Positions 51,637-55,179 of a stretch of 64,000 nucleotides of DNA are shown in pieces (positions within the stretch are counted from its first letter, which is position 1; the number at the start of each line of letters is the position of its first letter). This DNA is from an uncultured Flavobacteriaceae bacterium (GTDB lineage: Bacteria > Bacteroidota > Bacteroidia > Flavobacteriales > Flavobacteriaceae). Position numbers and translations under genes: made by a program. Location: assembly GCA_937136455.1 (NCBI GenBank), contig CAKZOO010000066.1:62001-126000 (forward strand). Direction: 5' to 3'. The notes below the pieces were generated by a model that saw only the letters and a list, made by a program, of their open reading frames with translations, was not told where the DNA came from and did not search any database.

Positions 51637-52185
51637 ATGAGTAAAGCAAAAGGAAAAATTCAAGAAAAAATAGATGAGAAATTACTCGAAGAGCGCAAGG
51701 TATTTCTCTGGGGGCAGGTAGATGATGATTCTGCAAAACACGTCATCGATCGACTATTGTATTTGGATTTAATCTCTCATGATGAAATTCAATTAATCAT
51801 TAATTCTCCAGGAGGATATGTAACCTCAGGTTTTGCGATTTACGACACTCTAAAATCACTTAAGAGTCCTGTATCAACGGTATGTTCTGGTTTAGCAGCT
51901 TCTATGGCTTCCATCTTGTTGTCTGCAGGGAAGAAGGGAAGAAGATTTATAGAGCCTCATGCACAGGTGATGATTCATCAACCAAGCGGAGGAGCTAGAG
52001 GGCAGGCATCGAATATTGAAATTCAAGCCAGAGAAATTATCAAAACAAGAACGCTTAGCGCAGAAATTTTAGCAACTAACTGTAACCAAAATACAGATAA
52101 AGTTCTAAAAGATTTTGATAGAGACTATTGGATGAATGCTCAGGAGTCTATTGAATATGGAATTGTAGATGGAGTAAAAGAATAG
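51637..52185 (+). CDS. ClpP-family serine protease (ClpP paralog)
   Basis: LIINSPGGYVTSGFAIYDTL, GLAASMASILLSAG (Ser), AQVMIHQPSGG (His), FDRDYWMNAQESIEYGIVD (Asp). Confidence 0.92.
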   Translation: MSKAKGKIQEKIDEKLLEERKVFLWGQVDDDSAKHVIDRLLYLDLISHDEIQLIINSPGGYVTSGFAIYDTLKSLKSPVSTVCSGLAASMASILLSAGKKGRRFIEPHAQVMIHQPSGGARGQASNIEIQAREIIKTRTLSAEILATNCNQNTDKVLKDFDRDYWMNAQESIEYGIVDGVKE

Positions 52186-52264: not shown

Positions 52265-53044
52265 TTAAATCTTATCGAATAATTTGTGCATTTTTTCTTG
52301 CTCTTCTTCAGCTAATAGTGGGTCAACAAGAATTCTTCCTGAATGCTCATCAGTGATGATTTTCTTCCTAGAAGCGATTTCTACTTGAACCTGTGGCGGA
52401 ATGGTGAAGAATGAACCTCCAGAAGCACCTCTTTCGATTGCTACTACTGCTAAACCATTTCTAGTTTTGGTTCTAATTCTTTGGTAAGCATTGATTAAAC
52501 GTTCTTCGATTTTAGCTTGAAATTCTTCAGATTTCTTAAGAAGTTCAGCTTCTTCTTTTTCAGTTTCAGCTAAAATACTATTGAGTTCACTTTTTTTGTG
52601 ACCTAAGTGCTCCTCTCTGTTAGAAAGACGTTCCTTAGCTTGTTCAATAGCTTCTTTTTTGTGCTCGATTTGAGCCTTAAACTCTTTGATGTTCTTTTCG
52701 GCTAATTCGATTTCTAATTCTTGGAATTCAATCTCTTTAGACAGCGAATTGTACTCTCTGTTGTTTCGTACGTTCTTTTGCTGCTCAGCATATTTCTTAA
52801 TAGCAGCTTTTGAATCATCAATTAAATTCTTCTTGTTAGAAATCTCAACTTTAAGAGTTTCTAAATCAGAATTTAATTTATCCAATCTAGTTTTTAATCC
52901 TGCTACTTCGTCTTCAAGATCTTCAACTTCTAAAGGAAGTTCTCCGCGAACATTTCTGATTTCGTCAATTCTCGAATCGATAAGTTGCAAATCGTACAGT
53001 GATCTTAACTTTTCTTCAACTGTAACATCTTTATTTTTTGCCAT
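52265..53044 (-). CDS. Coiled-coil protein of the C4 zinc-ribbon (zf-RING_7) family, without the zinc-ribbon cysteines
   Basis: Long N-terminal coiled coil, then NGLAVVAIERGASGGSFFTIPPQVQVEIASRKKIITDEHSGRILVDPLL. Confidence 0.85.
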   Translation of the reverse strand: MAKNKDVTVEEKLRSLYDLQLIDSRIDEIRNVRGELPLEVEDLEDEVAGLKTRLDKLNSDLETLKVEISNKKNLIDDSKAAIKKYAEQQKNVRNNREYNSLSKEIEFQELEIELAEKNIKEFKAQIEHKKEAIEQAKERLSNREEHLGHKKSELNSILAETEKEEAELLKKSEEFQAKIEERLINAYQRIRTKTRNGLAVVAIERGASGGSFFTIPPQVQVEIASRKKIITDEHSGRILVDPLLAEEEQEKMHKLFDKI

Positions 53045-53046
53045 AT

Positions 53047-54141
53047 TTAGTAATACTTAACTGGATTAGTTAGGGTCTCTGATAGAGAGGGTGCAAAATT
53101 AGGAATTTTTTTTGTAAGATACTCAACTAAAAGGTTTTTTGTAAACTGTTCACTCTCAAAATGTCCAATATCTGCCAAAAGAATACTTCCTTCAGCTTTA
53201 AAATAGTCGTGATATTTAAGGTCTGCAGTCACAAAGGCATCTGCTCCAGCTCTTTTTGCGGCCTCAATTGCAAATGCTCCTGATCCTCCTAATACGGCTA
53301 CTTTAGAAATCATTTTATCGGTATAGGCAGAGTGTTTAATCACTTCAATGCCGAATTTTCCTTTGAGTTTTGATAAGAACTGATGTTCATTTATCGGTTC
53401 TTCTAAGACTCCGATGCGCCCCATGCCAACTTCCCCGTGTGAATTGTCAAGAGTTACAATGTCATAAGCAACAGTTTCATAAGGGTGGGATTCGTTTAAG
53501 GCTTGGATCACTGAAGCTTCTTTATCAGCAGTAAACACTAATTGTAGTTGAACTTCTTCGACCTTTTCAGATTGATTGTGATTTCCAAGGGTAGGATTAG
53601 AACCTTCAAGAGGTGTAAACTCTCCTAGACCCAATGAGCTAAAGCTGCAGTTTTCATAATTTCCAATGGTCCCTGCACCAGCTTCGTATAGAGCTGACTT
53701 TACTCTTTCAACACTTTCTTTTGGAATATAAGTGCTCAATTTTTTGATCAAACCTGTTTTAGGAATCAACACCCTTACTTCTTTAAGTTTAAGTTTTTGA
53801 GCTATGGCAGCATTAACTCCTTCCTTAACATTATCTAAAGCTGTGTGCATACTGTAGATGGCAATATCGTGCTTAATTGCTTTAATAACAGTTTTAGTGA
53901 CGTAGTTAGAGGGTGTAAGTTGTTTGATACCACCGAAAATAATGGGGTGAAAGCTTACGATGAGGTTGCAGTTCTTTTCAATAGCTTCATCGACAACAGA
54001 TTCTAAGGTATCTAAAGTAACTAGGATCCCACTGACCTCCTCTTGGTAATTCCCAACTAAAAGTCCAACATTGTCAAAATCCTCTGCATAAGCTAAGGGA
54101 GCTAATTCTTCTAAGATCTGACATACTTCTTTTACAATCAT
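53047..54141 (-). CDS. Nif3-like dinuclear metal center protein
   Basis: LAYAEDFDNVGLLVGN...IVSFHPIIFGGIKQLTPSNYV...AVLGGSGAFAIEAAKRAGADAFVTADLKYHDYF. Confidence 0.93.
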   Translation of the reverse strand: MIVKEVCQILEELAPLAYAEDFDNVGLLVGNYQEEVSGILVTLDTLESVVDEAIEKNCNLIVSFHPIIFGGIKQLTPSNYVTKTVIKAIKHDIAIYSMHTALDNVKEGVNAAIAQKLKLKEVRVLIPKTGLIKKLSTYIPKESVERVKSALYEAGAGTIGNYENCSFSSLGLGEFTPLEGSNPTLGNHNQSEKVEEVQLQLVFTADKEASVIQALNESHPYETVAYDIVTLDNSHGEVGMGRIGVLEEPINEHQFLSKLKGKFGIEVIKHSAYTDKMISKVAVLGGSGAFAIEAAKRAGADAFVTADLKYHDYFKAEGSILLADIGHFESEQFTKNLLVEYLTKKIPNFAPSLSETLTNPVKYY

Positions 54142-54162
54142 GCTTACTTTTTTTAGGTATAA

Positions 54163-54170
54163 CAAATATA
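54163..54170 (-). promoter_or_regulatory. Bacteroidota -7 box for the Nif3-like gene
   Basis: CAAATATA on + = TATATTTG on -; supports the start at 54141. Confidence 0.5.
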
Positions 54171-54189: not shown

Positions 54190-55179
54190 ATGAATCTAAG
54201 AACTGTATTATTATTTCCGCTGTCGCTTAAATATGCTTATGTAGTGTTTTTTCGCAATAAGTTTTATGATTGGGGAGTGTTTAAAAGTCACAGTTTTAAA
54301 ACCCCAACAATCTGTGTGGGTAATATTTCTCTAGGAGGAACAGGAAAAACACCTATGATTGATTTATTGATCAATCATTATCAGAATAAGAAGGTTGTAG
54401 TACTCTCCAGAGGTTATGGAAGAAAAACAAAGGGGCTGATTCACGCTCATAGTAATTCGACAGCTTCAGAAATAGGAGATGAGCCCAAACAGCTTCTTAG
54501 TATGCACCCAGAAATTGAACTGGTGGTTTCAGAAGCTAGAGTAAAGGGGATGCAGTATATAGAATCTCAAATAAAGCCAGACTTAGTGCTCTTAGATGAT
54601 GCTTTTCAACATCGAAGTCTTAAAGCGAAGGTCAATATTTTATTAACGACCTATTCAAAACCGTATTTTAAGGATTATTACCTTCCATTAGGAACTCTAA
54701 GAGATCATAGAATCAGTGTTAATAGAGCAGATATGCTTGTGGTTACAAAGGCACCTAAGCAGGTGTGTTTAACGGATAAAAGTGAATTTAAATCACAATT
54801 TACAACAACTAAACCGATTCATTTTGCACATTTAGAGTATGCGGAACAATGTATTGGAGAAGTGAATACGCTATCTGTTGAGGAGTTGAAAAATTCAAAA
54901 GTGAATTTGGTTACGGGGATTGCTAACCCTAAACCACTCTTGGATTATTTAACACAAAAAGGAATTGAGCTGTCTCATTATAAATATAAAGATCACCATC
55001 AATACACCAGTAAGGATGTAGAATGTTTTACTGAAAATTCAGATGTCATATTGACGACTCAAAAAGATTTTGTCAAACTAAAAGGAATGTGTGACTCCTT
55101 ATATTATATAGGAATTCAACATCAGTTAGAACAAGAAGATTTGTTTTTTAATTCCCTTGATCAACTATTGAATTCTTAG
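54190..55179 (+). CDS. lpxK: Tetraacyldisaccharide 4'-kinase
   Basis: [21 protein letters not shown]...[13 protein letters not shown]...[12 protein letters not shown]. Confidence 0.96.

Follow-up and report, generated by a model that had tools for sequence, protein, structure and literature searches.

A zinc ribbon without zinc ligands in a flavobacterial DUF164/COG1579 protein, and a parallel in the primase DnaG

Background

The DUF164/COG1579 family includes HP0958/FlgZ of Helicobacter pylori, CT398/CdsZ of Chlamydia trachomatis and MSMEG_4306. Published screens found it to be essential in M. tuberculosis. Actinobacteria generally lack RpoN. Zinc ribbons are known to persist without their cysteines: Cys-less ("C-minus") paralogs of the ribosomal proteins L31, L33, L36 and S14 constitute a zinc-sparing device, and they are usually zinc-regulated second copies. 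HP0958 protects RpoN and requires its Cys residues to do so; the C202S or C223S variant reduces the level of RpoN, and thus a plain exchange of Cys for Ser is not tolerated in this protein. HP0959, the Nif3 protein of the same bacterium, is dispensable for RpoN stability, and in several phyla the DUF164 genes adjoin rpoD and dnaG (PMC3372290). Pereira et al. 2011 also describe the motif SXXS_X20_DXXS as general in the DUF164 proteins of Flavobacteria and leave their zinc binding open, so the core observation of the present work was already known (PMC3372290). According to the literature on DUF34, the link between Nif3 and DUF164 is the commonest one for DUF34, and eukaryotic Nif3/DUF34 proteins have Tyr where the HHP motif starts with His (PMC8469502).

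Here we analyze a member of this family from an uncultured Flavobacteriaceae bacterium. The window, i.e. the whole stretch of DNA analyzed, spans 64,000 nucleotides. The original prediction held that a zinc-ribbon protein encoded there had lost all four zinc-binding Cys residues while retaining the surrounding scaffold for a zinc-independent role.

Results and Discussion

Identity of the protein and its genomic neighborhood

The protein (Table 1) matches its COG1579/DUF164 relatives HP0958/FlgZ, CT398/CdsZ and MSMEG_4306 over the full length. In Pfam, PF02591 (Zn_ribbon_9) scores 33.1 bits against a cut-off of 29.1, and the CT398 coiled coil PF24481 falls under the cut-off (E=0.001). The phmmer alignments cover residues 13-240 with HP0958 (3na7) and 10-240 with CT398 (4ilo), and HP0958, CT398 and MSMEG_4306 are the only three matches of Foldseek against the PDB at E<=0.001. 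The N-terminal hairpin typical of CT398 and HP0958 is present, as seen from the whole-length alignment to 3na7 and 4ilo and from the AlphaFold2 helices (9-91, 95-178 and 181-193), with pLDDT mostly 72-93 through residue 180 and then 66 and 47 in the final two blocks. Confidence in the modeled ribbon is low (blocks spanning 191-259, pLDDT 36-52) because the input alignment was shallow; its order of elements, b1-helix-b2, is that of the MSMEG_4306 ribbon, at pLDDT below 53.

Table 1. Features of the DUF164 locus and of the DnaG protein of the same genome
Feature	Position	Strand	Basis
DUF164/COG1579 protein (HP0958/CT398/MSMEG_4306 family), Cys-less ribbon, 259 aa	52265..53044	-	ORF, Pfam, phmmer, Foldseek
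Coiled-coil hairpin, about residues 9-192	52470..53020	-	AlphaFold2 helices
C-terminal ribbon, residues 208-239	52328..52423	-	sequence and alignment of 128 family members
S208	52421-52423	-	column is zinc Cys in relatives
S211	52412-52414	-	column is zinc Cys in relatives
F213, hydrophobic; Asn/Ser in zinc-binding relatives	52406..52408	-	tally over family proteins
D232	52349-52351	-	column is zinc Cys in relatives
S235	52340-52342	-	column is zinc Cys in relatives
Nif3/DUF34, directly upstream of the DUF164 gene; first His of HHP motif is Phe (SFHPIIF)	53047..54165	-	ORF, PF01784
lpxK-like gene, divergent from the Nif3-DUF164 pair	54190..55179	+	ORF; named from sequence, not family search
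DnaG without all four CHC2 zinc ligands (S..S/D..S)	contig C107 of this genome (G000)	-	sequence

Near the C-terminal end of the ORF the sequence reads IERGASGGSFFTIPPQVQVEIASRKKIITDEHSGRILVDPLL, as originally quoted, and the zinc site CXXC_X18-26_CXXC of the family is absent, its four Cys positions being taken by S208 and S211 (S/S) and by D232 and S235 (D/S). The homology to DUF164 nevertheless stands, because the published family includes Cys-less members (PMC3372290); only the attribute "zinc-binding" fails. We reject sequencing error, contamination or misassembly, because the same residues are found in 80 independent named-record loci, nearly all from Flavobacteriaceae (79 at 77-81% identity, and one identical protein from a MAG), and in all genomes of the same genus that were examined. 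The search for a canonical Cys-containing paralog, which had been suggested as a check, came out negative: PF02591 has a single match in the whole genome, and with no Cys-containing second copy the protein does not qualify as a zinc-regulated C-minus paralog.

The order of Nif3/DUF34 followed by DUF164 on the same strand, seen in the window, recurs at most of the family loci examined, and lpxK lies divergently upstream of the pair at many loci in Bacteroidia. PF01784 likewise has a single match in the genome. Many Cys-less Flavobacteriales have F or Y instead of the first His in the HHP motif of Nif3. The Nif3 metal site was not lost in step with the DUF164 cysteines, however, as this residue is H in the Cys-less families f4, f7, f14, f20, f30 and f67 and F/Y in the CCCC families f88, f90 and f93 (in our numbering, f1 stands for Flavobacteriaceae). 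An apparent Nif3-DUF164 fusion in f24 (frames of 660 and 767 aa) was also discarded, the two matches being overlapping frames rather than one protein. Convergent with the DUF164 gene lies a gene for a ClpP-like protease (51637-52185; motifs GLAASMAS and MIHQPSGG), which was named by eye.

Constraint and compensation in the ribbon

In the Cys-less clade, 47% of the ribbon columns are conserved at >=95%, vs 25% of those in the coil, and at a coiled-coil identity of 0.5-0.6 the identity of the non-Cys ribbon positions is 79% in Cys-less and 73% in CCCC proteins. Asp at the third ligand position and Ser at the second and fourth are near-invariant over the clade, which exceeds chance; position 208 varies (S, P, A, T, I). 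Over 154 distinct sequences, both kinds of Ser codon, AGY and TCN, occur at S235, and D232 uses each of the two GAY codons. The residue at position 213, which follows the first knuckle, is hydrophobic in 66/66 Cys-deficient but only 1/61 CCCC proteins, the other 60 having a polar residue such as Asn or Ser, or else Gly; this count is to be read with the alignment of the position being uncertain in the lineages with deletions (Rhodothermia and three rows of f11) and the independent pairs being too few for significance. With a compensating polar-to-hydrophobic change at this position and conservation above that of the coiled coil, the ribbon looks re-engineered to do without zinc rather than decaying, and the claim that the scaffold was retained without its ligands is borne out.

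Distribution and history of the cysteine loss

All Flavobacteriaceae proteins examined are Cys-less, and the same state is fixed in most of the Flavobacteriales families sampled (f1-f5, f7, f9, f10, f12 and f16). Among the core Flavobacteriales proteins 47/49 have P/A/S/T/I-S-D-S and the remaining two T-S-S-C; family f14 has T..S/S..C. The pattern CxxC...CxxC is found in f6, f8, f11, f13 and f15, except for partial losses in three f11 genomes. At these three f11 loci the first knuckle is shortened to C-x-G-Y and the second is kept in full or in part, i.e. they represent separate partial losses. As the zinc columns hold Cys in these other families of the order and in most of the phylum, they must have been Cys ancestrally. 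The word "lost" is therefore appropriate at the level of the phylum and of the order, but not for an event specific to this genome, since the change is old and clade-wide; conversely, the objection that these columns were never Cys in the clade is true within Flavobacteriaceae and fails beyond it.

A tree calculated from the coiled coil with the ribbon excluded requires at least 7 changes for the Cys-deficient state, three of them forced by well-supported branches. Compared with the RpoB tree, losses map to the core Flavobacteriales, to three families from other orders of the class (f20, f67 and f30) and to the Rhodothermia-like f79, f84, f87, f89 and f91, with two partial losses in f11. Within f30, the DUF164 of genus g175 (G413 and G444) scores like CCCC proteins, and that of genus g118 (G334) is among the losses. 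In the coil tree the f20 proteins cluster with those of the core Flavobacteriales, and hence horizontal transfer may explain their state. Comparable losses occurred about four times or more in Bacteroidota; without f20, about four independent ones remain, or three when f30 and the partial cases in f11 are discounted as well. In one single-contig genome (G037) rpoB contains frameshifts and stops, probably due to sequencing error. Intermediates exist, namely T..S/S..C in f14, S..S/S..C in genome G438, and A-CT and A-CS in Rhodothermia, and they indicate that the order of loss varied: the third and fourth positions are S and C in f14 and G438, and C and S/T in Rhodothermia. The endpoint D-E-x-S-G was reached in five groups. 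The cysteines were thus lost, the loss was repeated in the phylum, and what remains of the ribbon is strongly constrained.

Proposed function

We consider it probable that, as a whole, the protein is an ordinary single-copy flavobacterial member of DUF164/COG1579 with a zinc-free ribbon core, which acts as an adaptor of RNA polymerase and a sigma factor. In an ancestor, the C-terminal ribbon would have exchanged its structural zinc for a zinc-free core, in which Asp232 and Ser235 would take over the hydrogen bonds that stabilize the turn of the second knuckle, and Phe213 would fill the vacated zinc site. The ribbon could then serve as a structural docking module at the base of the coiled-coil hairpin, and the hairpin may bind RNA polymerase via a sigma factor: sigma-54 where it is present, as for HP0958 and CT398, and elsewhere perhaps the primary sigma factor or some other core partner. 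RpoN was found in 41/45 genomes searched, including this one and Cys-less symbionts of 300-600 kb. Two symbionts of 300 kb (G260 and G275) keep a Cys-less DUF164 and gave no match for RpoN or Nif3, nor for DnaG on the contigs examined (209 and 249 kb). Sigma-54 is therefore not the sole partner, and DUF164 is of use beyond RpoN and Nif3. The zinc-independent binding of protein or RNA that was originally suggested is plausible by analogy to HP0958 and CT398.

A parallel in DnaG and alternative explanations

The replicative primase DnaG of this genome reads YKGLSPFSDERTPSFMVSPVKQIWKDFSSGKGG where its relatives have CPFH...CFGC. We located DnaG by phmmer and compared its state with that of DUF164 over 29 genomes; the zinc ligands of DnaG are lost in this genome and 18 others. 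Both proteins are Cys-deficient in 18 genomes and intact in 7, while one genome (f6) has lost the ligands only in DnaG and three (Rhodothermia/Balneolia) only in DUF164. Within Bacteroidia, DnaG has lost its ligands in 18/18 genomes with a Cys-deficient DUF164 and kept them in 7/8 with a CCCC one. The second knuckles of both proteins have become D-x-x-S (DEHS in DUF164 and DFSS in DnaG). On the RpoB tree the independent pairs agree in 4/4 cases, and in 3/3 on well-supported branches (p 0.25). A global loss of zinc ribbons is ruled out for RpoC, whose Cys residues are retained in 21/21 genomes with a readable stretch, and for ClpX, DnaJ and MetRS, which retain theirs in G052 (a fully read genome of 630 kb). 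A strict dependence between DUF164 and DnaG is contradicted by the symbiont G320 (285 kb contig), which has a zinc-less DnaG and no match for DUF164, Nif3 or RpoN, and is weakened by G260 and G275. Neither loss requires the other, with exceptions both ways, and the association is suggestive, not established. We found no description of this parallel loss in DnaG in the open-access literature. It is tempting to speculate, although we regard it as unlikely, that in several lineages of Bacteroidia these two unrelated ribbons gave up zinc jointly and converged on a D-x-x-S second knuckle as parts of one module or under one pressure, in which case the primase that starts DNA replication would be zinc-free in most Flavobacteriales.

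If the two ribbons formed one functional module, perhaps with Nif3 as a metal insertase, the loss of zinc in one could have freed the other. The tracking of the two states in Bacteroidia, the shared D-x-x-S, the concordant pairs, the selectivity of the loss and the dnaG-rpoD-DUF164 clusters of other phyla (PMC3372290) all fit such a module; nonetheless we find it quite unlikely, given the discordant f6 and Rhodothermia/Balneolia genomes (the latter with CHCC DnaG), the DnaG of G320, too few independent events for significance, and the finding that Nif3 is unnecessary for RpoN stability in H. pylori (PMC3372290). An outside pressure, such as zinc scarcity, thiol oxidation or mis-metallation stress, could instead have removed zinc wherever folding allowed, with no link between DUF164 and DnaG. 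It would account for similar chemistry in two unrelated ribbons of largely the same lineages, and the ribosomal C-minus paralogs offer a zinc-sparing precedent, but the cysteines kept in RpoC, ClpX, DnaJ and MetRS, the only other zinc proteins compared, and the absence of a Cys-containing paralog kept for zinc-replete growth make it unlikely.

Two further possibilities concern DUF164 itself. If the protein depended on its coiled coil alone, the ribbon might be decaying, which would agree with the disappearance of all four ligands and the variation at position 208. We regard decay as extremely improbable, since no other part of the protein is as conserved in the Cys-less clade and the ribbon survives in genomes of 300 kb. 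A metal could still be held by D232, E233, H234 and Ser, as DEHS supplies O and N ligands and both D232 and E233 are near-invariant. This is very unlikely, since H234 is also His, as a non-ligand, in zinc-binding relatives and gives way to Asn or Tyr in some of the Cys-less proteins, S208 is variable, and the hydrophobic F213 lies beside the site. We therefore prefer the zinc-free core described above.

A clade with a conserved zinc-free site provides a natural control that separates the role of the fold from that of the metal, in a family retained even by symbionts with genomes of 300 kb, and the parallel in DnaG bears on the question why primases carry zinc. The Cys-less DUF164 is real, well conserved and already reported; it is its parallel in DnaG that deserves to be followed.

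Comparison with known systems

Like the protein from the window, HP0958/FlgZ (3NA7) consists of a hairpin and a ribbon, is homologous over the full length and has Nif3 upstream; its four Cys residues, however, hold zinc and are needed for the accumulation of RpoN, while the window protein has none (PMC3372290). CT398/CdsZ (4ILO) and MSMEG_4306 (5Y05/5Y06), which are Foldseek hits 2, 3 and 5, share the same two-domain architecture, but their ribbons bind zinc via CXXC pairs that the window protein lacks. As in the C-minus ribosomal proteins, a zinc ribbon is kept without its Cys residues; those are usually second copies, whereas the flavobacterial DUF164 is the only copy and has changed over whole families. 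The DUF164 proteins of Flavobacteria described by Pereira et al. 2011, of the same family and taxon and with the same SXXS_X20_DXXS motif, are the same thing, and the phylogenetic mapping, the compensating change and the DnaG parallel presented here are absent from the part of that paper available to us (PMC3372290). Thus, what looks new in this work is the ancestral presence and repeated loss of the Cys residues, the change at position 213, and the parallel in DnaG.
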